This document shows, one piece after another, positions 5,200-22,499 of a stretch of DNA of 22,499 nt. Position numbers and translations under genes: made by a program. The stretch comes from a virus: positions 1-22,499 of the IMG/VR virus record IMGVR_UViG_3300037842_000176, one strand, 5' to 3'. Under the pieces are notes generated by a model that was not told the DNA's origin, ran no database searches, and worked only from the letters and a program-made list of their open reading frames with translations. Positions within the stretch are counted from its first letter, which is position 1, and each line of letters starts with the position of its first letter.

Positions 5200-5209
5200 A
5201 GGAAAAATA

Positions 5210-6181
5210 ATGTCATTAAATATTGTAAACGATACTGAAACAGTAGAACTTGGTCCATCTAAAGACGGCACGTATGATGGTGCTATGGGTGGTACTGAGT
5301 TAATGAATAAAGCACTATACGAAAGAGTAGATAATGATTTACTTGATGAGTTCTTTATTATTAAGTCTAGAGTGAGTGTTCTTGATAAGGATAAACCTAA
5401 CGTGTTATGGTTACACGATACTTGGGACGATCCGGAAGTACAACACCTTAAAGAACAAGAGAGCAGAGATAGGTTTGCTAAACTTGTATTCGTATCAAAC
5501 TATCAACTAGCAACGTATAACTTAGCATTGGGTGTTCCGTATGCTAATGCTACTGTATTAAGAAATGCTATTGACCCAATCGAGTATAAAGAAAAGGATA
5601 AGGATGTTATTCGTATCATCTATCACACTACTCCGCATCGTGGATTGAATCTTGTTGTTGCTGCAGTTAATGCAATTGCTAAAGAATTCGGTGATAAAAT
5701 TCATCTAGATGTGTTCTCATCGTTCGAAGCATATGGTTGGAAAGAACGAGATAAACCTTATGAAGAAATGTTTGAGGAAATTAGACAACACCCACAAATG
5801 ACGTATCACGGTTATCAATCTAATGACGTTGTTCGTAGTGCATTACAAGAAGCACATATCTATGCATACCCTAGTGTATGGCCAGAAACAAGTTGTATCT
5901 CTGCTATTGAAGCAATGAGTGCAGGTTGTGAAGTAGTATGTCCTAACTTCGCAGCACTTCCAGAAACTACTGGTAACTTTGCTCGTATGTATCAATTCAA
6001 TGAAGATATGAATGAACACGCAAACGTATTTGCCAATCAACTATATCAATCAGTCATTGAACATCGCGATCCAAATCTACAAAAGAAGTTAATGTTCCAG
6101 AAAAACTGGGTAGATAATTTCTATAATTGGGATCTACGTGCAGCAGAGTGGACTGATATGTTGAAAAATATTAAACGGTAA
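5210..6181 (+). CDS. GT-B fold glycosyltransferase (family 4-like)
   Basis: This 323-residue protein resembles GT4-type glycosyltransferases. A short N-terminal domain contains GGTELMN (27-33) and LWLHDTWDD (67-74). The C-terminal nucleotide-sugar domain has YHTTPHRGLNLVV (138-150) and the EX7E motif with Glu226 and Glu234 in PETSCISAIEAMSAG. It is somewhat shorter than typical GT4 enzymes (350-400), mainly in the N-terminal domain. It lies 10 bases behind the halogenase with AAGGAAAA as ribosome binding site. Likely targets are phage DNA bases, a virion protein or a host surface glycan. The sequence does not decide between them. Confidence 0.85.
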   Translation: MSLNIVNDTETVELGPSKDGTYDGAMGGTELMNKALYERVDNDLLDEFFIIKSRVSVLDKDKPNVLWLHDTWDDPEVQHLKEQESRDRFAKLVFVSNYQLATYNLALGVPYANATVLRNAIDPIEYKEKDKDVIRIIYHTTPHRGLNLVVAAVNAIAKEFGDKIHLDVFSSFEAYGWKERDKPYEEMFEEIRQHPQMTYHGYQSNDVVRSALQEAHIYAYPSVWPETSCISAIEAMSAGCEVVCPNFAALPETTGNFARMYQFNEDMNEHANVFANQLYQSVIEHRDPNLQKKLMFQKNWVDNFYNWDLRAAEWTDMLKNIKR

Positions 6182-6853: not shown

Positions 6854-7713
6854 TTTTCGTCGACTTTAGTCAGGTAATGATTTCAAACACAATGGTACAT
6901 CTAGGCAAGACACAAACAACTGTAGATGAAGGTATGATGCGTCATATGATTTTAAATAGTCTGAGAATGTTTAAGAACTCATATGGTAAGAAGTATGGTG
7001 AGTTAGTTATCTGTGTTGATGATAGAAGTTATTGGCGTAGAGATATCTTTCCGTACTATAAGGCACATCGTAAGGAAAGTCGTGATAAGAGTCCAGTTGA
7101 TTGGAGTCAAGTATATGGTGTGCTCAATAAGATTCGTGATGAGATTGCTACCGTATTTCCTTACAAGGTTATTGGAGTAGAGAAAGCAGAAGCAGATGAC
7201 GTTATTGGAGTCCTTTCAAAGCATTTTGGAACTGTACTAAATAATGATTCTACTGAAAGAAACTTAATCTTATCAAGTGATAAAGACTTTGGTCAGTTGC
7301 AGAAGTTTGCTAACGTTGATCAATATAGTCCTATTACTAAGAAGTGGTTGCGTATTGATAATCCTAAGGACTTCCTAATGGAGCATATCATTAGAGGCGA
7401 TAGAGGTGATGGTATTCCTAACTTCTTATCTGATGATAGTGCTATTATTAGTAAGACTAGGCAGACTGCTATTGCTAAGAAGAAAGTTGAAGTTTGGTTG
7501 AAACAAGAACCTGCTGAGTTTTGTGATGATAATATGATGCGCAATTTCAAAAGGAATGAGCAATTGGTTGATTTAGAAATGATTCCTAATAAGATATCTT
7601 CTGAGATTATCAACCAGTTTGAGAATTATAAAGTCCCTGAACGTAGAGGACTATTGAACTATTTCATCAAGAACAAATTAAAGAACTTGATGGATGTGAT
7701 TGGAGAGTTTTGA
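6850..7713 (+). CDS. rnh: T4-type RNase H (FEN-1 family 5' nuclease)
   Basis: This 287-residue protein is a clear relative of T4 RNase H, the 5'-3' exonuclease that removes RNA primers and adjacent DNA from lagging-strand fragments. Family features line up in order: FVDFSQ with Asp5, CVDDRSYWRRDIFPYYK with Asp57 (T4 has a nearly identical YWRRDF segment), EKAEADD at 111-117, SSDKDF with Asp144 and Asp146, and GDRGD with Asp184 and Asp187. The C-terminus (ERRGLLNYFIKNKLKNLMD, then EF) also matches the T4 ending. It lacks about 14 N-terminal residues relative to T4. The start is TTG, overlapping the previous stop. It should work with the DNA ligase at 10422 in Okazaki fragment maturation. Confidence 0.95.
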   Translation: MIFVDFSQVMISNTMVHLGKTQTTVDEGMMRHMILNSLRMFKNSYGKKYGELVICVDDRSYWRRDIFPYYKAHRKESRDKSPVDWSQVYGVLNKIRDEIATVFPYKVIGVEKAEADDVIGVLSKHFGTVLNNDSTERNLILSSDKDFGQLQKFANVDQYSPITKKWLRIDNPKDFLMEHIIRGDRGDGIPNFLSDDSAIISKTRQTAIAKKKVEVWLKQEPAEFCDDNMMRNFKRNEQLVDLEMIPNKISSEIINQFENYKVPERRGLLNYFIKNKLKNLMDVIGEF

Positions 7714-8145
7714 ATGAATAAAACATTTTATGAGATTTTTAAAGAGGTCCACAATGCTAAGAAGAAAGCAGAAAAGATAGCAGTACTTCATCATTATAGT
7801 AGTGCTTCGTTAAAGACTATTCTGGGTTATACGTATGACCCACGTATCAAGTGGTTGTTACCTGAAGGAATTCCCCCATATACTCCATTACCAGATGCTG
7901 CAGACCAAGAAGCAGGACTGGCTGCTGAGTTGAGACGGATATACTTATTCGTTGAGGGTAACTCAGAAACTCAAAGAAACCTAAAGCAAACAAGACGTGA
8001 GCAAATCTTTATTGATATGCTTGAGTCAGTAGACCCACGTGATGCTAAAGTATTAATCGGAATGAAAGAAGGTAAACTGCCATTCAATGGATTAACACGT
8101 AAGTTAGTAGCAGAAGCATTCCCAAACATTTCTAAAGACTGGTGA
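7714..8145 (+). CDS. Conserved marine T4-like phage protein (DUF6433-like)
   Basis: This 143-residue protein directly follows RNase H with no gap. In T4-like marine phages a protein of this size and character (helical, starting with an 'FYEIFKEVHNAKKKAEKI' type helix and containing GKLPFNGLTRKLVAEAFP near the end) is recurrent. From memory it corresponds to DUF6433; I cannot confirm that here. The last third (VLIGMKEGKLPFNGLT) looks like a conserved functional patch. Its linkage to RNase H suggests a replication or nucleic-acid role, which remains inference. Confidence 0.7.
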   Translation: MNKTFYEIFKEVHNAKKKAEKIAVLHHYSSASLKTILGYTYDPRIKWLLPEGIPPYTPLPDAADQEAGLAAELRRIYLFVEGNSETQRNLKQTRREQIFIDMLESVDPRDAKVLIGMKEGKLPFNGLTRKLVAEAFPNISKDW

Positions 8146-8189
8146 AAGCAAGATAAACGTTTAATATGGATAAAGGTTAAAGGACTAAT

Positions 8190-8774
8190 ATGGAATTAAT
8201 TAATGATGTAGGTATTTTCGATCACTTCTTATCAGACGATGAGTGTGATTACTTCATTGAGTTGTTTAAGAATAAAGAAAAGAATGGGTTTGTTTTTAAT
8301 AGGCAAGACTCAGAGAACAGTCCTGGGACAATAAAAAAAGATGATTCGATGGGAATAAATCTTGCTGATTGTACAGGAAACGATAAACTTGACGAACGAA
8401 ATAAATCTTTTATTGAAAATTTTTGGAACAATGCGTTCAAGGAATATACAGACCATTATTCTTCGTTGATTGATCATGGATTAAGTTATCACTTATATGC
8501 ATATAAAGTGCAAAAGACTTTGCCTGGAGGTGGATACCACGTATGGCATTACGAGAATAATTCAGGTTATGTCGCATCTAGGGTGTTGACTTGGATAATC
8601 TATTTGAATGACGACTTTGAAGGTGGTGAAACGGAATTCTTATATAAAAATATGAGAGTGAAATCGAAGAAAGGCACGTTAGCAATATTTCCTTGCAATT
8701 ACACCCATACTCATAGAGGAAACCCTCCATTAACTGGAGAGAAATATATTATGACGAGTTGGATACATAACTGA
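8190..8774 (+). CDS. 2OG-Fe(II) oxygenase (prolyl 4-hydroxylase-like)
   Basis: This 194-residue protein is predicted to be a 2-oxoglutarate and Fe(II)-dependent hydroxylase of the P4Hc/PF13640 type. GGGYHVWHYEN (113-123) provides the HxD/E pair as His120-Tyr-Glu122. YTHTHRGNPP (171-180) provides the distal His, and Lys185 in GEKYIMTSW sits where 2OG is bound. WIIYLNDDFEGGETEF (135-150) is the typical core of phage P4H-like enzymes. The start has AAGGA about 6-10 bases upstream of the ATG. Marine T4-like phages often carry several such enzymes. The substrate (protein, nucleotide or lipid) is not known. Confidence 0.88.
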   Translation: MELINDVGIFDHFLSDDECDYFIELFKNKEKNGFVFNRQDSENSPGTIKKDDSMGINLADCTGNDKLDERNKSFIENFWNNAFKEYTDHYSSLIDHGLSYHLYAYKVQKTLPGGGYHVWHYENNSGYVASRVLTWIIYLNDDFEGGETEFLYKNMRVKSKKGTLAIFPCNYTHTHRGNPPLTGEKYIMTSWIHN

Positions 8775-8778
8775 TTTA

Positions 8779-9366
8779 ATGAGTATAATTAATCCAGCAA
8801 TCATCATTGGCAATGGACCAAGTCGTAATGATATTGACTTACATAAGTTAGTAGGTAAAGCACCACTATATGGTTGTAATGCATTGTATAGAGATTTCGA
8901 CAAATGGGATTATCTAGTTGCAATTGATAATGGAATGATTAATGAGTTACATAAAGAACAAGTTGATAATGGAAACTTAATCATCCCTGCTGAAGAAGAA
9001 CGTTGGGAAAGTGCTGAATATAATCCCAACCGCAGACGTAACAATGCTGGAATGATTGCTATGGACTATGCTATTAAACATAAGCACAACCTATTATACT
9101 TGCTTGGGTTCGACTTTATACTTGCGGGTGAAGACTCTGTAGATAATGTCTATAAAGATAGTAAGAACTATGGACCTGAAACTCATGCACGTGAAGAAGA
9201 CAACTATTTTAGATTGAAATACTTTGAATGGTATGCGAGTAAGAACCTAGGAACATCAGTCATATTCGTTGTACCTGATGAGAAGATTGAAACGTGTAAG
9301 AGTGTGAGAGCAGGAAACGTAAGAGCAATGAAAACATCAGACTTTTTAAATAAATTGGAGAATTGA
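8779..9366 (+). CDS. GNGPS-motif Rossmann-like protein (DUF115/MptE-like or glycosyltransferase-like)
   Basis: The 195-residue protein begins with a strand followed by IIGNGPSRNDIDL at 9-21. The GNGPS loop is shared by DUF115/MptE-like proteins and by some sialyltransferase-like enzymes, where it binds a nucleotide or nucleotide sugar. Further Rossmann-like strands are visible (YLVAIDNG about 45-52, LLYLLGFDFIL about 105-115 and SVIFVVPDE about 160-168), and a NNAGMIAMDYAI helix follows an Arg-rich segment. The motif supports a nucleotide-dependent transferase, possibly acting with the glycosyltransferase at 5210. I cannot choose between the families. Confidence 0.6.
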   Translation: MSIINPAIIIGNGPSRNDIDLHKLVGKAPLYGCNALYRDFDKWDYLVAIDNGMINELHKEQVDNGNLIIPAEEERWESAEYNPNRRRNNAGMIAMDYAIKHKHNLLYLLGFDFILAGEDSVDNVYKDSKNYGPETHAREEDNYFRLKYFEWYASKNLGTSVIFVVPDEKIETCKSVRAGNVRAMKTSDFLNKLEN

Positions 9367-9666
9367 ATGAGTAATAAAGATATACATATTGATAAGTGGT
9401 TTGATGATAGAGGGATTACTGAGAACGGTAAAGCAATGAGTCAAGCAATTAAGACTCTGGAAGAAGTCACTGAGATGTTCGACGCACTAAATAGGAATAA
9501 CGTTCACGATGTTATGGATGCCGTTGGTGATATCTATGTAACACTTCGTGGAGTATGCTTAACCTATGGAATTGAAATGGATGAGTGTATTAACCAAGCA
9601 TATGATGAGATTAAAGACCGTAAAGGTTATCTAACACCAGAAGGAACATTCATCAAGGAGTCGTAA
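9367..9666 (+). CDS. mazG: MazG-like nucleotide pyrophosphohydrolase
   Basis: This 99-residue all-helical protein matches the MazG-like NTP-PPase pattern. LEEVTEMFDAL has Glu32, Glu33 and Glu36, and DAVGDIYVTL follows with Asp51 and Asp55, giving the EExxE...(E/D)xxxD metal-binding set. The size fits a single MazG domain. It would hydrolyse (d)NTPs or an alarmone-like nucleotide to monophosphate and pyrophosphate. Phage MazG proteins have been proposed to adjust nucleotide pools or ppGpp during infection. It begins directly after the upstream TGA and is followed by a coupled small membrane gene. Confidence 0.82.
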   Translation: MSNKDIHIDKWFDDRGITENGKAMSQAIKTLEEVTEMFDALNRNNVHDVMDAVGDIYVTLRGVCLTYGIEMDECINQAYDEIKDRKGYLTPEGTFIKES

Positions 9667-9831
9667 ATGATAGAACTTTGGATTGTAATATTTTTAATAT
9701 TTGTAGCATTATCAACAACCATTTCATATGCAGTAGGTTATTCACGTGGTAGAGAATATGGAATGAATTTTGTCGTAGATGATATGATAGATAAAGGAAT
9801 CCTCGAAGTCATAAACGAAGAAGATGAGTGA
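9667..9831 (+). CDS. Single-span membrane small protein (54 aa)
   Basis: The ATG follows the mazG stop with no gap (TAA ATG), and CAAGGAG just upstream serves as ribosome binding site. Residues 2-24 are a strong membrane span (IELWIVIFLIFVALSTTISY), followed by a charged cytoplasmic-type tail with RGRE and an acidic end (EVINEEDE). It overlaps the next gene by 8 bases. The function is unknown. Confidence 0.6.
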   Translation: MIELWIVIFLIFVALSTTISYAVGYSRGREYGMNFVVDDMIDKGILEVINEEDE

Positions 9832-10351
9832 TGAAAGAACTGTTAATCCTGACGCAATTCTACAAAAAAAGGTAACTGGTGATTATAGAATTGTTGATGA
9901 TTTTTTAGAATTAAATGATTATCATCAGTTAGTAAAACTTTTACTCAACGGTGAGTTTGACTGGTATCATAACCACGACACAAACCGTGATGACTTACAT
10001 TACTTCACCCATATGTTCTATAACAACTATGGGTTTTGTAGTAAGTATCACAACAAGTTAGGACAATTCATAAGCAAAATGAACCCTGCATCATTCGTTC
10101 AGATAAGGGCAAACCTATTCTCAAAGAGTGACAAAGTTGTAGAATTCGCACCAACTCAAAGTTTCGCATTCGAACATAAGTGTATGATGTTCTTTGTCAA
10201 TGCTAATGACGGATATACTAAACTGAGTGATGGTTCTAAAATATACTCTAAAGATAACCGTGCAGTATTCTTTAACGTTAAAGAACCATTCATTGACACC
10301 TCTTGCACTGATGATGTATTCCGTATGACTATGTCTTTCCACTACTTCTAA
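9824..10351 (+). CDS. 2OG-oxygenase-fold protein, apparently lacking the metal-binding residues
   Basis: This 175-residue protein has the framework of a phage 2OG-Fe(II) oxygenase subfamily: MNPASFVQIRANLFS (86-100), MMFFVNANDGYTKLSDGSKI (121-140), DNRAVFFNV (144-152) and TSCTDDVFRMTMSFHYF to the end. Active relatives, as I remember them, have an HxD pair shortly before the 'YvNtNdGyT' strand and a His before 'tscTD'. Here those places read EFAPTQ and PFIDTSC, so both His and the Asp seem to be missing, while the 2OG-binding Arg167 remains. It may be a non-catalytic binding protein or have changed chemistry. Promoter P4 begins nine bases after its stop. Confidence 0.6.
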   Translation: MSDERTVNPDAILQKKVTGDYRIVDDFLELNDYHQLVKLLLNGEFDWYHNHDTNRDDLHYFTHMFYNNYGFCSKYHNKLGQFISKMNPASFVQIRANLFSKSDKVVEFAPTQSFAFEHKCMMFFVNANDGYTKLSDGSKIYSKDNRAVFFNVKEPFIDTSCTDDVFRMTMSFHYF

Positions 10352-10359
10352 AATAACGC

Positions 10360-10388
10360 TTGACTTTTGAGTCAAACTAGGGTATAAT
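10360..10388 (+). promoter_or_regulatory. Sigma70-type promoter P4 (TTGACT / TATAAT) with inverted repeat over the -35
   Basis: TTGACT at 10360-10365, a 17-bp spacer, then TATAAT at 10383-10388 with GGG before it. This is the closest to the bacterial consensus of all promoters in the window. A perfect inverted repeat TTGACT-TTTG-AGTCAA (10360-10375) covers the -35 and could be an operator. The DNA ligase ATG lies about 26 bases past the predicted transcription start. Confidence 0.8.
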
Positions 10389-10421
10389 ACTTAGTATAGA
10401 CGATAAAAAAGGAAATGTGTT

Positions 10422-11696
10422 ATGAGTGTTAGTGAAATATTAGAAGAATGTGCAAGTGATAATGGACGTTTATTTAAAATAGATGTTCTAGAAAGAAACA
10501 AGGATGACGAACTTCTTAGGAAAGTCGTCAAAGCATCCCTCGACCCATATACTCAATACTATATCAGGAAGATCCCTGATTACATCACGGTTAAATTTCG
10601 TGAGTTCGAAAGTCTTGAATGGGCATTAACCGAATTAAAACAACTGTCATCTAGATCTGTTACTGGTAATGATGCCATCTCGCATTTAAGACTAGTCCTA
10701 CGATCTGTAAGTCCTAATGATGCTGAGGTTATTGAACGAGTAATCGGAAAAGACTTAAAGTGTGGTATTCATACATCAACTGCTAATAAAGTATATGGTA
10801 AGGACTTCATCGAGAAGTATCCTTGTATGTTAGCAGGTGCGATGAATGAAAAGAACTTCAAACATATCCAATTCCCTGCCTATGCCCAGACTAAAATGGA
10901 CGGTATGCGTGCAAACATAATCTTTGACAATGATGGTAACGTTAGTGTTCGTAGTCGTAACGGTAAGCACATTGAGTTACACGGATGGTTTGATAACGTA
11001 TCTAATATATCTAACGCAGTTATCGATGGTGAGTTAATCGTGCTTGATGAAGATGGTAATACCTTAGACCGTAAGACTGGTAATGGTATTCTCAATAAAG
11101 CAGTTAAAGGTACTATAACAAAAGAACAGACTGAGTTCGTAAGAATGACTGCTTGGGATATTATACCTCTAGACGATTTCAAAGCAGGTAAATCTGATAC
11201 ACCATATTCAGAAAGGTTTGCATCGTTAGCATTAATTGAACTTGACGATAAGGTAAGGATAGTTGATAATTATAATGCTGAAGATATGCCAGAGGTACAG
11301 ATTCTATTTAAAGAGTCATTAGCACAAGGTGAAGAAGGTGTTATCGTTAAGAATATGAATTCTATCTGGGAAGATAAACGTTCTAAAGGTCAAGTTAAAA
11401 TGAAAGTAGAACTTGAAGCAGACCTATTAGTTACTGCTTGGAATGAAGGTACGGGTAGAATTAAAGGATTAATGGGAAGTGTAACGGTTGTGTCTGCTGA
11501 TGGTGGTGTTGAAGTTAATGTCGGTTCTGGATTCAATGATGAAGATAGGAAGATGTTACCTGAAGATATTGTAGGTAAAATCATCACCGTTAAGTATAAT
11601 GAGATTATCCAAGATAAGAACTGTAACACTAAATCGTTATTCCTACCAATCTTCATTGAGATAAGACTTGATAAATCGTCTGCTGATATTCTATAA
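10422..11696 (+). CDS. ATP-dependent DNA ligase (T4 gp30-like)
   Basis: This 424-residue enzyme seals nicks in duplex DNA through a ligase-AMP intermediate. Motif I is TKMDGMR with the adenylated Lys158, almost the same position as Lys159 of T4 ligase. Motif III is IDGELIVLD (201-209), motif IV EEGVIVKN (304-311), and motif V lies around QVKMKVELEADLLV (325 onward). The C-terminal OB-fold region follows. An all-helical N-terminal domain (1-150) contains CGIHTSTANKVYG, typical of the phage family. It is about 60 residues shorter than T4 ligase (487). AAAAAAGGAAA upstream of the ATG is the ribosome binding site. It partners functionally with the RNase H at 6850. Confidence 0.95.
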   Translation: MSVSEILEECASDNGRLFKIDVLERNKDDELLRKVVKASLDPYTQYYIRKIPDYITVKFREFESLEWALTELKQLSSRSVTGNDAISHLRLVLRSVSPNDAEVIERVIGKDLKCGIHTSTANKVYGKDFIEKYPCMLAGAMNEKNFKHIQFPAYAQTKMDGMRANIIFDNDGNVSVRSRNGKHIELHGWFDNVSNISNAVIDGELIVLDEDGNTLDRKTGNGILNKAVKGTITKEQTEFVRMTAWDIIPLDDFKAGKSDTPYSERFASLALIELDDKVRIVDNYNAEDMPEVQILFKESLAQGEEGVIVKNMNSIWEDKRSKGQVKMKVELEADLLVTAWNEGTGRIKGLMGSVTVVSADGGVEVNVGSGFNDEDRKMLPEDIVGKIITVKYNEIIQDKNCNTKSLFLPIFIEIRLDKSSADIL

Positions 11697-11721
11697 CCCT
11701 ATTATAAAGGTGGGTTTATTT
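11694..11721 (+). terminator. Possible weak terminator after DNA ligase
   Basis: AACCC at the ligase stop can pair with GGGTT about 12 bases later, followed by TTATTTAT. The stem is short and AT-rich, so this is a weak candidate. A similar ACCC...GGGT arrangement follows the stop at 12286, so it appears to belong to the duplicated module. Confidence 0.25.
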
Positions 11722-11725
11722 ATGA

Positions 11726-11795
11726 AATTAGCCACCTATTCCTGCAGTTTAGGGTATAATAGGTGGTATAAGGTTGATTAATAAAGGAGTATGTT
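11726..11795 (+). repeat. 70-bp exact direct repeat, copy 1 (promoter plus leader plus RBS)
   Basis: Positions 11726-11795 are identical, base for base, to 12306-12375. The unit contains a GGGTATAAT -10 element, an inverted repeat around it, a short leader and AAAGGAG. Both copies end exactly at the start codon of a different gene (GTG at 11796, ATG at 12376). Weaker similarity continues upstream to the preceding stop codons, interrupted by an indel of roughly 11 bases. Confidence 0.95.
11732..11766 (+). promoter_or_regulatory. Promoter P-R1 with 9-bp inverted repeat flanking the -10
   Basis: TATAAT at 11755-11760, preceded by GGG. The region 17 bp upstream reads CCACCT, which is not a -35 match, so the promoter may depend on the extended -10 or an activator. 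CCACCTATT (11732-11740) and AATAGGTGG (11758-11766) are a perfect 9-bp inverted repeat whose right arm overlaps the -10 and the expected start site. This arrangement suits a dimeric regulator. Confidence 0.65.
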
Positions 11796-12044
11796 GTGGA
11801 TGATTTAAGAAAATTTAGTTTAGATATTATTAAAAAGAACCCAGAATTGGGTGGTGAGATTGTTGATTTATTTTCAATGATGATGGAAGAGGTTGAGGAT
11901 GGTTCTTCTGAAGAACTTGAACGTGACCGATTTGTTTGTAGTGTTGAAGAACTTGTTTATGCTAAAGAAGAAAAAGAAGCAGAAGAAGATGAGTCAACTT
12001 GTAATGATGGTGGAATACCTATCCCAATTTATAGAAACAACTAA
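11796..12044 (+). CDS. Acidic small hypothetical protein (82 aa)
   Basis: This protein is very acidic (EEVEDGSSEELERD, then KEEKEAEEDEST) and mostly helical, with no recognised domain. It starts at GTG, seven bases after the GGAG supplied by the 70-bp repeat; in the second copy of the repeat the corresponding start is ATG, which supports this start. Very acidic small phage proteins sometimes mimic DNA to block host DNA-binding proteins, but here this is only a possibility raised by composition. It is followed 11 bases later by another small gene. Confidence 0.6.
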   Translation: MDDLRKFSLDIIKKNPELGGEIVDLFSMMMEEVEDGSSEELERDRFVCSVEELVYAKEEKEAEEDESTCNDGGIPIPIYRNN

Positions 12045-12055
12045 GAGGAGAATAT

Positions 12056-12286
12056 ATGAAATATAAATTAAAAAATCCAGATGAGTTCAATACATATTTA
12101 GAGAGTGTCGGTTCATTTGCTGATGCTCAGGGTCTTCATCCTATTAATGAAGATGGTACAGTTGATTTTGAAAAGGATATGGTTGTTAAGTATTCTGAAA
12201 TTGACGATCTAGAGTTCATACAAATTATGTCTGAAGAAGATGCTAATGCTTGGAAAACACTAAGAAAGCATTTTGGTGTATTATGA
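12056..12286 (+). CDS. Small hypothetical protein (76 aa)
   Basis: This is an acidic, probably alpha/beta protein of unknown function (YKLKNPDEFNTYLESVG at the start, LEFIQIMSEEDANAWKTL near the end). GAGGAG ends five bases before the ATG, a strong ribosome binding site. It is the last gene before the second copy of the 70-bp repeat, so it forms a two-gene unit with the 11796 gene. Confidence 0.6.
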   Translation: MKYKLKNPDEFNTYLESVGSFADAQGLHPINEDGTVDFEKDMVVKYSEIDDLEFIQIMSEEDANAWKTLRKHFGVL

Positions 12287-12305
12287 CCCTTTTATAAACG
12301 TGGGT

Positions 12306-12375
12306 AATTAGCCACCTATTCCTGCAGTTTAGGGTATAATAGGTGGTATAAGGTTGATTAATAAAGGAGTATGTT
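12306..12375 (+). repeat. 70-bp exact direct repeat, copy 2
   Basis: This stretch is identical to 11726-11795, offset by 580 bp. It carries the same -10 element, inverted repeat, leader and ribosome binding site, and abuts the ATG of the next gene. Perfect identity between copies implies a recent duplication, gene conversion or strong constraint. Confidence 0.95.
12312..12346 (+). promoter_or_regulatory. Promoter P-R2 with 9-bp inverted repeat flanking the -10
   Basis: TATAAT at 12335-12340 lies within the same CCACCTATT/AATAGGTGG inverted repeat (12312-12320 and 12338-12346) as in copy 1. It should drive the 12376-14652 cluster. Confidence 0.65.
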
Positions 12376-12528
12376 ATGAACAAGAAAATAATTAATAAAG
12401 AAATTAAAAGAGTTAAAGCAGATAAGACTATTGATGCTAAAAATAAAGAATTCTTAACTGCTTGGTTAAAGAAAGGTTATGATGGTCCTGACCAGTTACT
12501 TAAAGAAGAAATTGCTCTCCGTGGTTAA
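12376..12528 (+). CDS. Small basic hypothetical protein (50 aa)
   Basis: This 50-residue, Lys-rich helical protein (MNKKIINKEIKRVKADKTID) starts seven bases after the GGAG of the second 70-bp repeat. The role is unknown. Its position as the first gene behind a duplicated promoter and its proper start site are the reasons to accept it. It overlaps the next gene start by about 8 bases. Confidence 0.6.
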   Translation: MNKKIINKEIKRVKADKTIDAKNKEFLTAWLKKGYDGPDQLLKEEIALRG

Positions 12529-12736
12529 GGTTGGTGAGTTTTTATATGAAGTCGTTACACGTGGTGAGGCGAAATACTTTATCCGCAATGATGTTATTGG
12601 TGGAGTCGATGTTGAGAAAGATGATGATATGATATTGACTCAGATGTCTGACTTTGTAATGGAGTTTAGAAAGAATCGAAACCCTGCTGCAATTGGTGAA
12701 TGGTTTGTGAATAGAGGAGGAAATAATGAGTTATAA
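12521..12736 (+). CDS. Small hypothetical protein (71 aa)
   Basis: The function is unknown. It opens with a beta-type segment (VKVGEFLYEVVTRGEAKYFI) and continues acidic and helical. The GTG at 12521 overlaps the preceding stop by 8 bases and is my preferred start. The frame is open further upstream to an ATG at 12479, but that would overlap the upstream gene by 50 bases. The gene carries AGAGGAGG near its 3' end for the next gene. Confidence 0.5.
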   Translation: MVKVGEFLYEVVTRGEAKYFIRNDVIGGVDVEKDDDMILTQMSDFVMEFRKNRNPAAIGEWFVNRGGNNEL

Positions 12737-12959
12737 ATTGGTTAGAGTTGAGTATAAGAGTTCTGTTGAATGGTATGATGTTGATACTAAATTGACTGAT
12801 GAAGATGTTAATCAAATTGAAGAATTGTATGCTGGTGATGTCGGCGCATTCCTTGACAATAATCGTCGAATCGATGAGGATAAGGTTTGGGAAGGCGAAT
12901 TGATTCGAGAGAAAGATACTGGCACTACTGTTGAATGGTTAATTGAGGAGGAGTTATAA
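12726..12959 (+). CDS. Small acidic hypothetical protein (77 aa)
   Basis: This acidic protein has a beta-strand-like N-terminus (YKLVRVEYKSSVEWYDVD) and alternating charged segments. No family is recognised. GAGGAGGAAATA lies immediately upstream of the ATG, within the previous gene, giving strong coupled translation. Its stop overlaps the next start (TAATG). Confidence 0.6.
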   Translation: MSYKLVRVEYKSSVEWYDVDTKLTDEDVNQIEELYAGDVGAFLDNNRRIDEDKVWEGELIREKDTGTTVEWLIEEEL

Positions 12960-13123
12960 TGAGTGAATTATTTAGAAAAATGATTAGGGTTGTTGGTGGT
13001 GTCGTTTTGGTTACTGCTGGTGCTGCTAAGATTGTGAGTTTATCTGGTGGTGATTTGATGTCATTATTATTTGTATTTGGTATCGTTGTTGGTACAGTTG
13101 CTCTTACGGTAGGTGACCAATGA
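12959..13123 (+). CDS. Two-span membrane small protein (54 aa)
   Basis: This frame is coupled on both sides (TAATG start, ATGA end) and preceded by GAGGAGG. The protein has a basic N-terminus (FRKMIR), a span at about 11-28 (VVGGVVLVTAGAAKIVSL) and a second at about 33-51 (LMSLLFVFGIVVGTVALTV), with a short Gly-rich turn between. Two helices in 54 residues resembles small holins or superinfection proteins, but it sits far from the late lysis-like genes, so this is only a possibility. Confidence 0.6.
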   Translation: MSELFRKMIRVVGGVVLVTAGAAKIVSLSGGDLMSLLFVFGIVVGTVALTVGDQ

Positions 13124-13500
13124 ATTATACAGTAAGTGATGATTTTTATGATGGTGGTCCATCTGATAGTTTAGACTATGGTCCATCGTTTAAAGGTATG
13201 CCGATGTGGACTCAGTTCGGAAAGATTGAAGACTCTCAAACATTAGAGGGTGTGATTAAAGCAAAGAAATTAAGAAAGGTTAGTTCAGTTACTACTGACG
13301 ATGATAAGAAGTTTATCCTAACTGCTAAAGATGTCAAAACTATTAAGGAGATAATCTTAGCATTCCCCACTCAAGTTCGTAGTGAGGTGTTTAGGGAAAT
13401 TCAATCAGCGAAGGGTTTGACTTCTGTGATAAAGTGGAGTAAAATAGATAAGGTGACTGACGATATTTTAATAAAGATTTGGGAAGAAATGAATGAATGA
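13120..13500 (+). CDS. Hypothetical protein (126 aa)
   Basis: I do not recognise this protein. The N-terminal 35 residues are Gly/Asp/Tyr-rich and probably disordered (DDFYDGGPSDSLDYGPSF). The rest looks like a helical domain with basic patches (TAKDVKTIKEIILAFPTQVR). It starts ATGA on its neighbour's stop and overlaps the HAD gene by 8 bases, so it belongs to the same operon. Confidence 0.6.
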   Translation: MNYTVSDDFYDGGPSDSLDYGPSFKGMPMWTQFGKIEDSQTLEGVIKAKKLRKVSSVTTDDDKKFILTAKDVKTIKEIILAFPTQVRSEVFREIQSAKGLTSVIKWSKIDKVTDDILIKIWEEMNE

Positions 13501-16843: not shown

Positions 16844-17068
16844 ATGGCAGATCAAACGTTAGACGCAAGTGGATTAAATTGTCCACTACCAATATTAAAG
16901 ACTAAGAAAGCATTAAATAAAATGGAGTCTGGTCAAATCTTAGAAGTTATTTCAACAGATGCAGGGTCAGTAAAGGATTTAGAAGCATTTTGTAATCAAA
17001 CAGGTAATAAATTAATTTCAACCGAAGAAGTTGCTGGAAAGTATCTCTTCACAATAGAGAGAGTATAA
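16844..17068 (+). CDS. tusA: TusA-family sulfur-carrier protein
   Basis: This 74-residue protein is a TusA/SirA-like sulfurtransferase. LDASGLNCPLPILKTKKAL contains the hallmark CPxP motif, with Cys13 as the persulfide-carrying residue at the start of the first helix. The rest follows the family fold, with EVISTDAGSVKDLEAFCNQTGN and a final strand. It carries sulfane sulfur between sulfurtransferases. In sulfur oxidisers it hands sulfur through DsrEFH to DsrC, and a DsrC gene lies 123 bases downstream. AAGGAG precedes the ATG. The stop overlaps the next small gene (TAATG). Confidence 0.93.
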   Translation: MADQTLDASGLNCPLPILKTKKALNKMESGQILEVISTDAGSVKDLEAFCNQTGNKLISTEEVAGKYLFTIERV

Positions 17069-17191: not shown

Positions 17192-17515
17192 ATGGCACAG
17201 ATATTAGGTGTAGAAGTAGATGAAGAAGGTTTCTTAGTAGATCTTAAAGAATGGAATAAAGAAATCGCTATTGAAATGGCAAAGTCAGATGAGATTGAAT
17301 TAACAGAAGAACATTGGGAAGTATTAAACTTCCTACGTGACTACTATGAAGAATATCAAGTAGCGCCAGCAGTTAGAGTATTGACTAAGCAAATTAAAAA
17401 GACTATGGGAAAGGATAAAGGCAATTCAAAATACCTTTATGAGTTATTTCCATATGGACCAGGAAAGCAAGGTTGTAGGTTTGCTGGACTTCCGAAACCA
17501 ACTGGTTGTATCTAA
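17192..17515 (+). CDS. dsrC: DsrC/TusE-family sulfur-carrier protein, with both DsrC cysteines
   Basis: This 107-residue protein is a full-length DsrC-family member. EDGFL-type start (VDEEGFLVDLKEW), ELTEEHWEVLNFLRDYYEEY (36-55), the GKDKGNSKYLYELFP region (73-87) and GPGKQGCRFAGLPKPTGCI at the C-terminus all match. Both redox cysteines are present: Cys95 and penultimate Cys106, eleven residues apart. TusE proteins keep only the last Cys, so this is DsrC proper. DsrC carries the trisulfide or persulfide that links sulfur transfer to the Dsr sulfite reductase and membrane complex DsrMKJOP. Phage dsrC genes are known from SUP05 viruses. GGAG lies seven bases before the ATG. Confidence 0.95.
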   Translation: MAQILGVEVDEEGFLVDLKEWNKEIAIEMAKSDEIELTEEHWEVLNFLRDYYEEYQVAPAVRVLTKQIKKTMGKDKGNSKYLYELFPYGPGKQGCRFAGLPKPTGCI

Positions 17516-17628
17516 TGTTTGAGTCATTTTTAATGGGGGCAATACTATTCTTTGCCTTCTATATAACACAGCAAGATAGAAACTATTTCTGTCAAAAAGT
17601 ATGGAGTAAATTATGGAAACAAAAATAG
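17515..17628 (+). CDS. Membrane microprotein after dsrC (37 aa)
   Basis: This frame starts on the dsrC stop (TAATG) and overlaps the following gene by 16 bases. It has a hydrophobic span at about 4-17 (SFLMGAILFFAFYI), then a basic tail (KVWSKLWKQK) and one Cys. The function is unknown. It appears to be co-translated with dsrC. Confidence 0.5.
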   Translation: MFESFLMGAILFFAFYITQQDRNYFCQKVWSKLWKQK

Positions 17629-17882
17629 GAAAATTAGTAGGTGCTGGTATAGCGATTGTATTATGGATAGGGTTATTATTACTATCTAACTCTGCTAAGG
17701 CAGATTATATTACAATGGACGTAGATTCATCTGTACAAAGTGGCACGGTGGTATGTGATAGTGTTAAGAGTTGTTATGTTAAGACATTACAGATGGAGCA
17801 ACGTGGTTCTGCTCAATACTGTAACTCAGTTGTAATTAAGAGAGATGGTAGAGTAGTTTGGTTTAAAAACTATTATAGATAA
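17613..17882 (+). CDS. Exported small Cys-containing protein (89 aa)
   Basis: A basic N-terminus and long hydrophobic stretch (GAGIAIVLWIGLLLLSNSAKA) form a signal peptide with likely cleavage before Asp31. The mature 59 residues contain three Cys (CDSVKSC, then YCNS), consistent with a periplasmic disulfide or a redox or sulfur-binding site, and appear beta-rich (VVIKRDGRVVWFKNYYR). No family is recognised. It is the last gene of the sulfur cassette, and promoter P6 begins two bases after its stop. It could be a periplasmic partner of the sulfur genes or an unrelated envelope protein. Confidence 0.65.
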   Translation: METKIGKLVGAGIAIVLWIGLLLLSNSAKADYITMDVDSSVQSGTVVCDSVKSCYVKTLQMEQRGSAQYCNSVVIKRDGRVVWFKNYYR

Positions 17883-17883
17883 C

Positions 17884-17912
17884 TTTACAATTGATATGAA
17901 ATAGGGTATAAT
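17884..17912 (+). promoter_or_regulatory. Sigma70-type promoter P6 (TTTACA / TATAAT), possibly giving a leaderless mRNA
   Basis: TTTACA at 17884-17889 and TATAAT at 17907-17912 with a 17-bp spacer and GGGTATAATATA context. The expected transcription start (about 17919) falls at the ATG of the methyltransferase at 17920, which has no Shine-Dalgarno sequence. Confidence 0.75.
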
Positions 17913-17919
17913 ATACTTT

Positions 17920-19263
17920 ATGGATTTTGAATTATATAATTATTATGACCAACGAACAGTAAATAACGTTCCGTTCCTTAACTCTAAGGAATTCAAATAT
18001 ATAACAAACAAATGGGGCAAAGTAGAATGTAGAGAAACCCTCGCAGAATACATTGCCTCTAACCAATCTACATTTCCTTTTAATATTATCAATAAAAGGG
18101 CAATGGTTAAAAACTTTCTCAAATTGAATACTACTAGGTATGAGAAATACTTAACACCATCATCACCAGAAGTTGATAGTAATATTCTTGAGAAGTATGA
18201 TGACTACAAATACGATTATCATAGTAATGCATTAGGTATGGTTGACTGTCCTTCTGCACCATTTAATAGGGTATCTGATTATTTCATGAGGAAACTTAGA
18301 TGGTCTTGTCCATCATATGGACACAAGAGTCCAATTGAAGTGTGGGAAAATGGTGAAGCAAAGGAAATTTGGGGTGTGCTTGGAGTTCTGTGGCGAGGAG
18401 TTAATGGTACACATTTTAACGATGATGGTGAGTGCACTGCTGGGGAATTGTCGAGCAACTCATATGCCGTGGCATTCAGACTAGGTTCTTACATAGCAAC
18501 TCAATTCAAACCAATAGTAGCAAAGTCTGTATATGAGATGACAGATGCTAAACGTGTATTAGATACAAGTATGGGATGGGGAGATAGACTAGCAGGGTTC
18601 TTTGCGTCATCAGCAACAGAGTATATTGGTTGTGACCCAAACCCAAATACCTTTAAGATATATAAAACAATGGCAGTTGAGTATTCAAACATACTCTCTA
18701 ATGACCACACTATCACTGCTGATATTGAAGACTACTTTGAATTAGTCGGTGATAAAAAATCAATTAAAATATATCGTTGCGGTGCAGAGAATCTACCTTG
18801 GGATAGTATAAGCGATATAGATTGTGCATTCACCAGTCCACCATATTTTAGCACTGAGAGATATAACGAGGGTGGTGATAAAGAATCTGACCAGTCATGG
18901 AGTAAGTTTAATGAGTATAATAATTGGAGGGATGACTTCTACCTGCCAGTTGCTAAACACTCATTTGAATCATTATCTGATAAAGGATTCTTAATCGTGA
19001 ACATAATGGATCCTAAAATCAAAGGTGTTAGGTATTATTCGTGTGATGAATTAGTTGATTCGTTAAAGGATAAGTTTATTGGACAGTTTGGCATGAGGAT
19101 AATGCAAAGACCACAAGGTAGGCATTTATATTCAACTCCAGAAGAATTGAAGGAATATCTTAATAAGTCTTATATCGAAAACGTATGGTGTTTCAGTAAG
19201 AGTGATGAACCAATTGATTTGTTTAGAGAGTCAAGAGTAGCAACACTAGATTCTTTCTTTTAG
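17920..19263 (+). CDS. DNA methyltransferase (SPPY amino-methyltransferase)
   Basis: This 447-residue protein is predicted to methylate an exocyclic amino group in DNA (N4-cytosine or N6-adenine). The S-adenosylmethionine motif I is VLDTSMGWGDRLAGFFAS (213-230), and IGCDPNPNTFKIYK (236-249) is motif II. The catalytic motif IV is TSPPYF, with SPPY at 306-309. A 200-residue N-terminal extension, containing GVLWRGVNGTHFNDDG, may be a target-recognition region. No restriction enzyme is next to it, so it is probably a solitary modification enzyme that protects phage DNA or regulates it. The gene seems to be translated from a leaderless transcript, and its end overlaps the convergent metalloprotease by four bases. 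Confidence 0.88.
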   Translation: MDFELYNYYDQRTVNNVPFLNSKEFKYITNKWGKVECRETLAEYIASNQSTFPFNIINKRAMVKNFLKLNTTRYEKYLTPSSPEVDSNILEKYDDYKYDYHSNALGMVDCPSAPFNRVSDYFMRKLRWSCPSYGHKSPIEVWENGEAKEIWGVLGVLWRGVNGTHFNDDGECTAGELSSNSYAVAFRLGSYIATQFKPIVAKSVYEMTDAKRVLDTSMGWGDRLAGFFASSATEYIGCDPNPNTFKIYKTMAVEYSNILSNDHTITADIEDYFELVGDKKSIKIYRCGAENLPWDSISDIDCAFTSPPYFSTERYNEGGDKESDQSWSKFNEYNNWRDDFYLPVAKHSFESLSDKGFLIVNIMDPKIKGVRYYSCDELVDSLKDKFIGQFGMRIMQRPQGRHLYSTPEELKEYLNKSYIENVWCFSKSDEPIDLFRESRVATLDSFF

Positions 19264-19775
19264 TTAGTGACGATACCCATATCATTATAATCTTGTTTTA
19301 ACCATTCAAGCTCTAGTTCTCTATCTTGAGCATATAAATCTTCTACATCACCTTTAGTATCATTGATGATATCTAGTTTAGCAGTTCCATTAATGATAAC
19401 ATTTTTATGGTTTGCCATAGCACAATGATATATCTCATGTCCCATTATTGTCATTGCCTCTCTATCATCCCAAATCTCAGCAGGAATGATATGAACGAAG
19501 CAAACATCTTCATCTGGATTAACAACAGCAAACCCTCGTACACCAGCACCATCTGGTAATTTCTCACCAGTATTTTTTTCAAATGCTTCGTTTAACCTTT
19601 CGGGGAATTTGTATAATATAAGTTTAACAATGAAGTTAGTTCGTCCAATTTCGGATGTATCATCTCCTCCATACTTTGCTAGATTGAAGTCGTCAAGTGC
19701 TTCCACTTGTGAATATATTAGTGCGAATGCAAACCACACAAAGAATGTAATTACTATCTTGTCGAATACTCTCAT
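19260..19775 (-). CDS. Exported zinc metalloprotease (HExxH)
   Basis: This is the only convincing minus-strand gene. The 171-residue precursor has a signal peptide (FDKIVITFFVWFAFALIYSQVEA, cleavage near residue 26) and a zinc motif GHEIYHCAMANH. The His113-Glu114-xx-His117 pair is followed by His123, fitting HExxHx5H. The preceding strand VCFVHIIPAEI and the acidic tail are compatible with a small compact metallopeptidase; I cannot place it in a named family. It could cleave envelope or surface proteins. A late-promoter octamer lies on the minus strand at 19790-19783, so transcription should begin next to the ATG, leaving practically no leader. Confidence 0.75.
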   Translation of the reverse strand: MRVFDKIVITFFVWFAFALIYSQVEALDDFNLAKYGGDDTSEIGRTNFIVKLILYKFPERLNEAFEKNTGEKLPDGAGVRGFAVVNPDEDVCFVHIIPAEIWDDREAMTIMGHEIYHCAMANHKNVIINGTAKLDIINDTKGDVEDLYAQDRELELEWLKQDYNDMGIVTN

Positions 19776-19782
19776 AACTACT

Positions 19783-19796
19783 TATTTATATAAATA
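19783..19796. promoter_or_regulatory. Palindromic bidirectional T4-type late promoter
   Basis: The 14-bp perfect palindrome TATTTATATAAATA contains the T4 late octamer TATAAATA on the plus strand (19789-19796) and also on the minus strand (19790-19783). It lies in the only 36-bp gap between divergent genes in the window, between the metalloprotease and the holin/curli operon. Confidence 0.7.
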
Positions 19797-19811
19797 CTGA
19801 AATATACAACT

Positions 19812-20102
19812 ATGGTTTCAGGCATGGATTTTCTATCAATTGTAAGTGAAGTTGGGTTCCCAATAGCAGGTGCTGGTGCAGCAGGATACTTCGTATTTCT
19901 AACAGTTAAGTTTATTCTTGCTGGTGTTACTGGTGGTGTGCACGGACTTAAAAATATCATCGGTGCTTTAGATAATAGAGTACAGACAATGAATAACGAC
20001 TTAGTAAAGATTGATGCTCTTATGAGTTATGCATTAAAGGTCAAACCTAACATTGACAGAATTGCTGCCAATGAAGGAAAGGAGGATGCTCGACGTGACT
20101 GA
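19812..20102 (+). CDS. Holin-like membrane protein, first of a tandem pair
   Basis: This 96-residue protein has a short N-terminus followed by SEVGFPIAGAGAAGYFVFLTVKFILAG (about 12-38), one membrane span, and then a helical cytoplasmic-type region with heptads (IIGALDNRVQTMNNDLVKID). The 'GFPI' start of the span and trailing coiled coil are typical of small phage holin-like proteins and YvrJ/BhlA-type families. The next gene encodes a close paralogue. The ATG at 19812 has no good ribosome binding site; an ATG at 19824 (MDFLSIV) is equally plausible. It is the first gene after the late promoter at 19789. Confidence 0.65.
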   Translation: MVSGMDFLSIVSEVGFPIAGAGAAGYFVFLTVKFILAGVTGGVHGLKNIIGALDNRVQTMNNDLVKIDALMSYALKVKPNIDRIAANEGKEDARRD

Positions 20103-20430
20103 TACTTTAGTGAATGGCATTAGTCAATACGGATTCCCAATCATTGCTGCAATGGGACTTGGTTACTTTGTATTTTATATATGGCAATGGGTGACTACAG
20201 AAATTAAACCAGTTATAAGTTCTGCTCAAAAGACTTTAATTGGATTGGTAGATAGAATTAGAATGTTAGATAATGATATGATACGTTTGAATACAAAACT
20301 TCAAATGGTATTAGAATACCACGAAAAGAATGGTATTCCTATTGACGGTGAATTGAAAGATATAATGGAGAAGTATGCGTCAAGTAATACACAATTTAAT
20401 CAAGACTCTAATCGTAATAAGTCTAAGTAA
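20095..20430 (+). CDS. Holin-like membrane protein, second of a tandem pair
   Basis: The protein starts TDTLVNGISQYGFPIIAAMG and shares the GFPI...GYFVF span with its neighbour, so the pair arose by tandem duplication. The span (about 12-33) is followed by a longer coiled-coil region (LVDRIRMLDNDMIRLNTKLQ, then MVLEYHEK) and a polar tail. GTG at 20095 is chosen because AAGGAGG ends nine bases upstream and it overlaps the previous stop by 8 bases. Internal ATGs further upstream lie within or before that site. A holin/antiholin or two-component pore pair is a reasonable hypothesis. Confidence 0.65.
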   Translation: MTDTLVNGISQYGFPIIAAMGLGYFVFYIWQWVTTEIKPVISSAQKTLIGLVDRIRMLDNDMIRLNTKLQMVLEYHEKNGIPIDGELKDIMEKYASSNTQFNQDSNRNKSK

Positions 20431-20824
20431 TGTAATAGCAAGTCCGTTTACGCACGAGTTTTCAAATCCATCGTTTACTGGTAACGCAGGTGCACATTGG
20501 TTAAGCATTGAAGAGAAACTACTAAAGAAGAAAGAGATGTTTGCTGATAGGAAACGTGCTGAAGCAGAAAAGGCATTAGCATTATCGAATAAAAGCAATC
20601 TTAAAAAGTTCTTTGCTAACGTAGAAGCACGTATCTATGCTAACTTATCAAAGCAATTGGTAGACCAGATGTTTGGGGAAACCTCATCAACAACTGGCAC
20701 AGTAACAGTAGAAGGCAATACCATCACTTATATTAAGACTGATGATAGTATCGTATTAACAGTCGTAAATGAAGATGGTACTACAACTGAAATGACTTTA
20801 CCAGTTAATTCCTTTACATTCTAA
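20375..20824 (+). CDS. csgF: CsgF-like curli assembly factor
   Basis: This 149-residue precursor has a signal peptide (HNLIKTLIVISLSNVIA, cleavage after Ala22). The mature N-terminus carries FSNPSFTGNAGAHWL (29-43), matching the F-x-NP-x-F-G-GN segment of CsgF that inserts into the CsgG channel and forms its second constriction. The middle is helical (LSIEEKLLKKKEMFADRKRA), and the end is a beta-rich domain (TGTVTVEGNTITYIKTDDSI). The start overlaps the upstream holin-like gene by 56 bases but has GGAG in place. CsgF sits at the outer membrane with CsgG. It is directly followed by csgG, as in curli operons. Confidence 0.85.
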   Translation: MRQVIHNLIKTLIVISLSNVIASPFTHEFSNPSFTGNAGAHWLSIEEKLLKKKEMFADRKRAEAEKALALSNKSNLKKFFANVEARIYANLSKQLVDQMFGETSSTTGTVTVEGNTITYIKTDDSIVLTVVNEDGTTTEMTLPVNSFTF

Positions 20825-21591
20825 TGGAATATCTATTAGCAATATTATTAGTATGTACATTATCAGGTTGTGCCACACTAGATGGACCTGAGTTTAATGA
20901 TATGAGTCAAGCAACTATACCTACAATACCTGTTCTTGATGGCGAGCCAATGATGGTTGCTGTTTATAAGTTTAGTGATTTGACAGGACAAAGAAAACCT
21001 GGAGAGAAGTTTGCTAATATATCCACGGCAGTAACTCAAGGTGGGTTAGAACTACTAATAATGTCACTTAATGAGATTGGTGATGGTAAATGGTTTAGTG
21101 TATTAGAACGAACGAGTTTAGATTCTCTTATTAAAGAACGACAATTAATAAGGAATGGAAGGGAATCGGTTGAAGGTGATGCTTCTCAGAAATTACCAAC
21201 ACTTGTATTTGCAGGTGTGATGATTAATGGTGGTATTATAGGATATGATTCTAATATAACCACAGGTGGTTCAGGTGCTAGGTTCTTAGGAATCGGTGCT
21301 GTTACTGAGTACAGAGAAGATATGGTTACAGTATCTTTGAGGTTGACTTCAATTGCTACTGGCGAAGTATTATTATCATCAACGGAATCGAATATAATTT
21401 ATAGCAAGTCTGTTGATGGGAACATATTTAGATTTGTAGATTTGGGGACAGAACTTGTAGAATTAGAATCTGGTGCGACAAAGAACGAACCAGTAACATT
21501 CGCAGTAAAGAGGGCAATTGATAAAACGATTGTTAGTTTAATCCATAAGGGAAATAAAAAAGACTTATGGAAATTTAAAAGAGGAGAATAA
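20824..21591 (+). CDS. csgG: CsgG-like outer-membrane secretion lipoprotein
   Basis: This 255-residue protein is a CsgG-family lipoprotein. The signal ends with the lipobox LSGC, so Cys16 is lipidated. The family core is recognisable: MVAVYKFSDLTGQRKPGEKF (44-63), STAVTQGGLELLIMSLNE (67-84) and FSVLERTSLDSLIKERQLIR (92-111). Beta-barrel strands follow (TLVFAGVMINGGIIGYDSNI, then MVTVSLRLTSIATGEVLLSS), with a C-terminal helix. CsgG forms a nonameric pore in the outer membrane for curlin secretion. It starts on the csgF stop (TAATG). In a phage the pore could serve secretion or envelope disruption. Confidence 0.93.
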   Translation: MEYLLAILLVCTLSGCATLDGPEFNDMSQATIPTIPVLDGEPMMVAVYKFSDLTGQRKPGEKFANISTAVTQGGLELLIMSLNEIGDGKWFSVLERTSLDSLIKERQLIRNGRESVEGDASQKLPTLVFAGVMINGGIIGYDSNITTGGSGARFLGIGAVTEYREDMVTVSLRLTSIATGEVLLSSTESNIIYSKSVDGNIFRFVDLGTELVELESGATKNEPVTFAVKRAIDKTIVSLIHKGNKKDLWKFKRGE

Positions 21592-21592
21592 G

Positions 21593-22294
21593 ATGAATAA
21601 GTTTATCGCATTCTTTGTTATGAGTTTGATGACATTTATATCATACGGTGCTGACAATAAGTTATACATCGACCAAACTGGTGATACGTTAAGTGCAACT
21701 ATTGTACAAGATGGTGGTGGTAATACTATCGGTACATCAGTAACAGACTTCACTTTGAAAGGTGATACGATGACATTTAACGTAGACCAAACAGGTAGTA
21801 CGAATACATTAACTGGTGTTGTTGCTGGTGATGATTCCGATACAGTGATTGCTGTTACAGGTTCATCAAATGACATTGCGTTAAATGTATGTACATCAAG
21901 TACAACAGCAGGTGCTGGTAATTGTGAAGACGTAGATACTAATATAACATTAGATGGTTCGTCGAATGACTTGACTGTTGATGTTGGTTTAGTAACTGAT
22001 GCAGGTGGATTGAATTTAGCAATTGATGTAACTGGAAGCACAAACACAATTGACATGGATTTAGATTCTGGTAGTGATGGTTTAACCAATTCATCAGTTG
22101 ATTTAGATATTACTGGTAGTACAAATACTGTAACACTTGACCAAACAGGTACGTTGACATCTAATGTGTTTAAACTTAACCACACTGGTGGCACGAGTGG
22201 CTTCACTATTACGCAGACTGGTGGTACTAATAATAATGTATTGGATTTAACTACTACTGGTGATGGGCATACGGTTACTGTTACTCAGCAGTAG
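21593..22294 (+). CDS. Curlin-like repeat protein
   Basis: This 233-residue precursor has a signal peptide (MNKFIAFFVMSLMTFISYGA). The mature protein is built of short beta repeats with N-x-(V/I/L) strands and QTG/TGS turns: DQTGD at 27-31, DQTGSTNT at 65-72, TGSSND at 89-94, DGSSND at 121-126, TGSTNT at 147-152 and 174-179, DQTG at 183-186, and QTGGTNN at 208-214. Such Gln/Asn/Gly repeats are typical of curlin-type amyloid or beta-solenoid subunits. It has almost no Lys or Arg after the signal, two Cys near 100-111, and few aromatic residues, unlike E. coli CsgA. It begins just after csgG with AGAGGAG upstream, and is the likely substrate of the CsgG/CsgF pore. Confidence 0.8.
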   Translation: MNKFIAFFVMSLMTFISYGADNKLYIDQTGDTLSATIVQDGGGNTIGTSVTDFTLKGDTMTFNVDQTGSTNTLTGVVAGDDSDTVIAVTGSSNDIALNVCTSSTTAGAGNCEDVDTNITLDGSSNDLTVDVGLVTDAGGLNLAIDVTGSTNTIDMDLDSGSDGLTNSSVDLDITGSTNTVTLDQTGTLTSNVFKLNHTGGTSGFTITQTGGTNNNVLDLTTTGDGHTVTVTQQ

Positions 22295-22499
22295 TTTATT
22301 ACTTTCTCTCAATGTATTTGGGAGTATCGGTAATATAACTACACATGAAGGTATTGGTGAAATTAACCGTGGTAAAGATAAGTTCGTCACTGAATCTAAA
22401 CTTGGTGTAGAACAACTTGATGATATACGAACTGGCAGTGGCAAGATTGGTATCACGTTTGAAGACTCGACTAAGGTTAAGATATCTAAGAACTCAAGT
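22263..22499 (+). CDS. Exported FecR-domain protein, partial (runs off the window)
   Basis: This frame stays open from an ATG at 22263 to the window end (79 codons). It overlaps the curlin-like gene by 32 bases. The start MGIRLLLLSSSLLLSLNVFG is a signal peptide. The mature part matches the FecR-domain pattern: GIGEINRGKDKF, then DDIRTGSGKIGITFEDSTKV and ISKNSS, with the expected 'rTg...i.f.D.t.v.i..nS' residues. In exported proteins this domain is a beta-rich module often paired with adhesins or surface fibres. It extends the curli-like operon; its C-terminal part lies outside the window. No clear ribosome binding site precedes the ATG. Confidence 0.7.
   Translation, partial: MGIRLLLLSSSLLLSLNVFGSIGNITTHEGIGEINRGKDKFVTESKLGVEQLDDIRTGSGKIGITFEDSTKVKISKNSS

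Follow-up and report, generated by a model that had tools for sequence, protein, structure and literature searches.

Genes A and B and the role of a phage curli operon

A virus record of 22.5 kb, analysed here over its whole length (the window), ends in six same-strand and mostly overlapping genes that run from position 19824 to the end in the order A, B, csgF, csgG, a curlin-repeat gene and a FecR-domain gene. The operon raises the question of what a phage does with a curli-type secretion pore that is preceded by two small membrane proteins of holin-like appearance. An earlier note made from the sequence had suggested either a lysis route through outer-membrane pores or release of an amyloid-like fibre during lysis. 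The comparisons reported here move the question from a lysis pore to a late surface or secretion function, and two genes, A and B, are named.

Gene content and late promoter of the operon

Domain matches confirmed the operon's gene content and coordinates as first described, with two start codons corrected (Table 1). The most likely start of A is the ATG at 19824 rather than 19812, because the phrog_18771 profile aligns from 19824. The start of B was moved to a GTG that lies 9 nt after an AGGAGG. The gene overlaps also held, at 8 bp for A/B, 56 bp for B/csgF, 1 bp for csgF/csgG and about 35 bp for curlin/FecR. The late promoter proposed earlier was supported as well: of 72 distinct A genes, 21 have the T4-type motif in the 100 nt that precede them, versus 1.4 expected in shuffles.

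Table 1. Features of the operon at the end of the window
Feature	Position	Strand	Evidence and remarks
T4-type late promoter motif TATAAATA	19789..19796	+	upstream of gene A; sequence and enrichment in related phages
Gene A	19824..20102	+	92 aa, single TM; phrog_18771 E=9e-31; linkage; alignment
Gene B	20095..20430	+	111 aa, single TM, paralogue of A; phrog_18771 E=3.7e-29; linkage; alignment
csgF	20375..20824	+	PF10614 E=3.6e-15; signal peptide, then FxNPxF motif
csgG, outer-membrane pore lipoprotein	20824..21591	+	PF03783 E=4.4e-49; lipobox LSGC
Curlin-repeat protein, predicted substrate	21593..22294	+	PF07012 E=1e-7, two stretches; signal peptide
FecR-domain exported protein, 5' part only	22260..22499	+	phrog_37870 E=1.3e-12; contig ends there

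A near-identical contig (L005), which overlaps window positions 17413-22499 at 99.1% identity, completes the operon. It carries the full-length FecR gene (4848-5843; PF04773, E=4e-10), followed by a CHASE2-nucleotide cyclase that we read as adenylate-type because of its motifs FTDVRGFT, KYIGD and VNLGAR. The locus thus has adjacent csgF and csgG, a curlin-repeat substrate gene adjoining them, and FecR and CHASE2-cyclase genes downstream, the last of these seen in L005 since the window genome is a fragment. CsgE, which the earlier note had not seen in the operon, was not found in four related records either (HTVC008M, Melnitz, L012 and L030). A DUF1353 gene was considered as a further member of the module and set aside, since it lies close to A or to the cyclase in no more than some of the loci.

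The window and L005 encode other genes of interest. Directly upstream of the operon and divergent from A, the minus strand (19260-19775) encodes an exported protein that weakly resembles peptidase M48 (E=0.08) and contains the HExxH motif as GHEIYHCAM. TusA-like (16844-17068; PF01206, E=5e-26) and DsrC-like (17192-17515; PF04358, E=1e-44) sulfur-relay genes precede it, and L005 has a second DsrC-like gene (8994-9284). The window also encodes a phage protein with a DruA-like domain (1920-2993; PF14236, E=9e-8) and a tryptophan-halogenase family protein (3718-5199; E=2e-109), with a similar-looking ORF at 9951-11399 of L005. A phage-encoded GroES co-chaperonin (13087-13362; phrog_3188, E=3e-24) is present in L005.

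Predicted secretion pore and curlin substrates

The lipobox cysteine of CsgG (Cys16) is invariant in the alignment, and residues 4-252, nearly the whole protein, align with the E. coli CsgG structure 3x2r (E=4e-44). The predicted model is of moderate confidence (pLDDT 67), and its best matches in a fold search are CsgG structures (4uv2, E=9e-20). CsgF is 40-44% identical to the CsgF proteins of Melnitz and HTVC008M, and a sequence search of the PDB with it returned no match. Structure predictions were run on an input alignment from which one row, taken from an annotated record, had been left out.

The domain match in Table 1 upholds the suggestion that a curlin-like substrate is encoded. For this protein AlphaFold2 predicts an all-beta repeat fold with good confidence (pLDDT 86, pTM 0.83); the model has no significant fold match in the PDB, and there is a weak match to the curlin-repeat structure 8c50 (E=0.0075). 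Nearly all loci carry one to two curlin genes. The second curlin of HTVC008M bears a PA14 domain, and no second curlin was detected in L005. The predicted curlin fold and the PA14 domain are more in keeping with adhesive proteins, secreted or at the surface, than with a lysis pore.

Two small membrane proteins tied to the curli module

Genes A and B encode paralogous small proteins of roughly 80-145 aa with one TM segment, and both belong to phrog_18771, a PHROG of unknown function. The tandem pair of small TM genes pointed out in the earlier note is there, and its assignment to a holin family is not firm: "holin-like" describes an architecture of one TM segment and an amphipathic tail, and none of the 34 A and B members examined matches a Pfam holin or another curated holin family. 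The charges of the flanking residues suggest an N-out/C-in orientation for A and are less clear for B.

The distribution of the pair was followed in 80 viral loci fetched by CsgG, 80 loci in genome assemblies fetched by CsgG and about 140 further viral loci fetched by A or B. Every csgG-fetched locus that covers the module and still has flanking sequence at either end has both A and B (21/21). Conversely, module genes are present in each of the 30 A/B-fetched loci that extend for about 10 kb to either side; three of these loci reach cyclase, FecR or curlin genes and have no csgF or csgG in the stretch covered. Among the distinct csgG loci without A and B, the contig ends on one side in all except L070, whose flanks measure 3.9 and 2.6 kb. 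In a collection of 50,697 phage records, A and B occur only in the records of HTVC008M and Melnitz.

This association persists through several layouts. Most commonly A-B lies upstream of csgF; in 28 distinct loci the pair sits beyond the cyclase on the opposite strand, in five A is found between csgF and csgG (B-csgF-A-csgG), and other layouts are rarer. Across 69 loci, mean pairwise identity reaches 60% in A and 50% in B, compared with 40-50% in CsgF, CsgG, FecR and the cyclase; A is thus better conserved than the secretion genes. In a co-evolution comparison meant to name a partner, A and B scored 0.62 with each other, 0.29-0.35 with the cyclase and 0.13-0.16 with csgF, csgG and FecR; as a control, a small set of core genes (gp32 and gp59) followed A, B and CsgG to much the same degree, so that the scores single out no partner.

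We also considered A and B as parts of bacterial curli systems and as generic holins. The former was rejected: the bacterial curli operons examined lack both genes, and a B profile matched none of 289 alphaproteobacterial genomes while recovering 6 of 6 phage records as a positive control. Five A/B loci bear bacterial titles (L084, L085, L091, L110 and L162) and are probably misbinned phage contigs. The latter was rejected for want of a curated family match and of any csg-free occurrence. The association of A and B with the curli module in all loci with enough flanking sequence, and in several layouts, is the new observation here. Linkage this conserved suggests that the pair works together with the secretion system, and A and B look more like part of a secretion module than of a lysis cassette.

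Lysis, uptake and kinase readings

A lysis route would have A and B act as holins, or CsgG act like a pinholin, with the CsgG pore opening the outer membrane and timing progeny release. Late timing suits lysis too, the one-TM architecture of A and B is compatible with it, and such a role has been proposed for the CsgG of Melnitz (PMC9004378), which also means that the idea was not a fresh one when the earlier note raised it. Some members (3 of 17 for A, 8 of 17 for B) match the holin family phrog_4898, weakly and locally, with a best E of 1.1e-4; 16 residues, a short motif, are covered in the single alignment inspected. Against this stand the related phages. HTVC008M has a glucosaminidase endolysin (record positions 141029-141661) apart from the module. 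In its sister Mosig, which infects the same host strain and has a 72% identical capsid, A, B, CsgF, CsgG, curlin, FecR and cyclase are all missing; this phage encodes a glucosaminidase along with a GH108 endolysin. Because Mosig has endolysins and no module, the module is, as judged from gene content, dispensable for lysis of that host by a related phage. A lysis cassette elsewhere in the genome, which the earlier note had named as a point to check, is thus found in part: the endolysin of HTVC008M is separate, and neither HTVC008M nor Mosig yielded an identified holin or spanin, so the module may contribute to lysis in phages that carry csg genes. No endolysin gene was noticed beside A and B in the window, L002, L003 or L005. 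Where flanks allow, the strongly conserved A and B never occur away from the curli module; the earlier note would have counted a complete lysis cassette elsewhere, together with a lack of conserved holin-csgFG linkage, against itself, and for the linkage the opposite was found. With no curated holin match, an A gene that outstrips the secretion genes in conservation, csg linkage in all loci that could be checked and a sister phage lacking all these genes, the holin reading is not supported and we consider a lysis route unlikely.

It also seems improbable that CsgG serves as an uptake pore that lets nutrients or cofactors into the infected cell while FecR and the cyclase act as sensors. This was suggested in PMC7029224 and PMC9599517 and agrees with the finding of no CsgE plug, but it leaves unexplained both the conserved csgF and the curlin genes, and the promoter is late, not early. 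A further reading concerns A and B alone. According to PMC9599517, one or two genes labelled HK always precede csgF, which is the place of A and B here, and by position these HK genes would correspond to A and B. That would make the pair small histidine kinases regulating the type VIII secretion system (T8SS). None of 34 A and B members has a HisKA or HATPase match in Pfam, however, and their length leaves no room for a kinase core; we regard this reading as very hard to maintain.

Proposed role in late secretion

The best explanation, to which we assign a probability of roughly 0.6, is late secretion of curlin-type adhesins to the surface of the infected cell, with A and B as dedicated inner-membrane accessories. 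In this reading the operon is the type VIII (curli-type) secretion module that marine T4-like phages express late. CsgG, helped by CsgF, would form a pore in the outer membrane of the infected host, and the beta-rich curlin-repeat proteins would be exported by Sec and then pass through this pore to the surface. There they may assemble or adhere, altering the surface or aggregation properties of the cell before lysis. The exported FecR protein and the inner-membrane CHASE2-adenylate cyclase could provide a sensing or signalling arm, and A and B may be a dedicated single-TM inner-membrane pair for assembly, gating or signalling rather than a phage holin. Secretion, fibre formation, surface function and the role of A and B are all inferred.

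Late secretion is supported by the domain matches, the CsgG and curlin predictions, the PA14-bearing curlin, the linkage of A and B, the late motif, the separate endolysin of HTVC008M, the gene content of Mosig and the same gene order in HTVC008M and Melnitz. On the other side, no clumping was seen in Melnitz cultures (PMC9004378), CsgE was not found, and the structural models give a curlin without a significant fold match and a CsgG of moderate confidence. Aggregation, competitor exclusion and uptake are candidate benefits for the phage, and sequence does not choose among them.

More tentatively, phage curli systems could depend on A and B as an inner-membrane component peculiar to phages. 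The pair may gate or drive secretion in place of CsgE, or couple secretion to the CHASE2 cyclase. If they are needed, the phage T8SS would be mechanistically distinct from its bacterial counterpart.

Comparison with bacterial and phage curli systems

CsgF, CsgG and curlin repeats are common to the phage module and to the curli operons of bacteria, both csgDEFG-csgBAC and the alphaproteobacterial variants, but the bacterial loci examined lack A and B. Among these loci, FecR and cyclase genes adjoin csg genes in a single one, on a 705-kb contig of Hyphomonas sp. TMED17 (L100), where csgF-csgG-curlin-FecR-CHASE2/cyclase (7345-13368) lies among bacterial-type genes and has no A or B. PMC9599517 states that T8SS operons of bacteria do not include the histidine kinase and cyclase; the TMED17 locus departs from this pattern in having FecR and the cyclase. 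Its CsgG groups with those of phages at a split that sets them apart from other bacterial CsgGs (99% SH-aLRT in a quick tree without bootstrap), and the operon is possibly a cellular source or a recapture of the phage module. A 1499-bp unannotated record titled Salmonella phage S.Kent 1-2-1 (OR851715) also encodes CsgG and is perhaps host DNA.

The window operon is a further example of a published type of phage T8SS module. That CsgG and CsgF occur in marine T4-like phages of SAR11 and OM43, as the earlier note stated, is on record: both proteins were described in pelagimyophages (PMC7029224), and curli genes were described in Melnitz, with a pinholin- or secretin-like lysis role proposed for CsgG (PMC9004378). 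The combination with a phage curlin substrate, which the earlier note stressed, is already described together with FecR in PMC9599517, which reports HK gene(s), csgF, csgG, csgA/B, FecR, a second csgA/B and AC in podo- and myophages and finds phage-borne curli systems widespread in the ocean.

HTVC008M and the pelagimyophages (PMC7029224; KC465899) share the arrangement A-B-csgF-csgG-curlin-FecR-(curlin 2)-cyclase. HTVC008M differs in its PA14-bearing second curlin, and its CsgG is 47% identical to that of the window. The Methylophilales phage Melnitz (PMC9004378; MZ577096) has the same gene order, with A 80% and B 63% identical to those of the window; it differs in having a second curlin, and its CsgG is likewise 47% identical. 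HTVC023P-type pelagipodophages (PMC9599517) share the set of T8SS partner genes, including FecR and adenylate cyclase, but their pre-csgF gene(s) are called HK, whereas no kinase domain was found in A or B. Two small membrane proteins always accompany the module where this can be checked, and a sister phage manages without the whole module.
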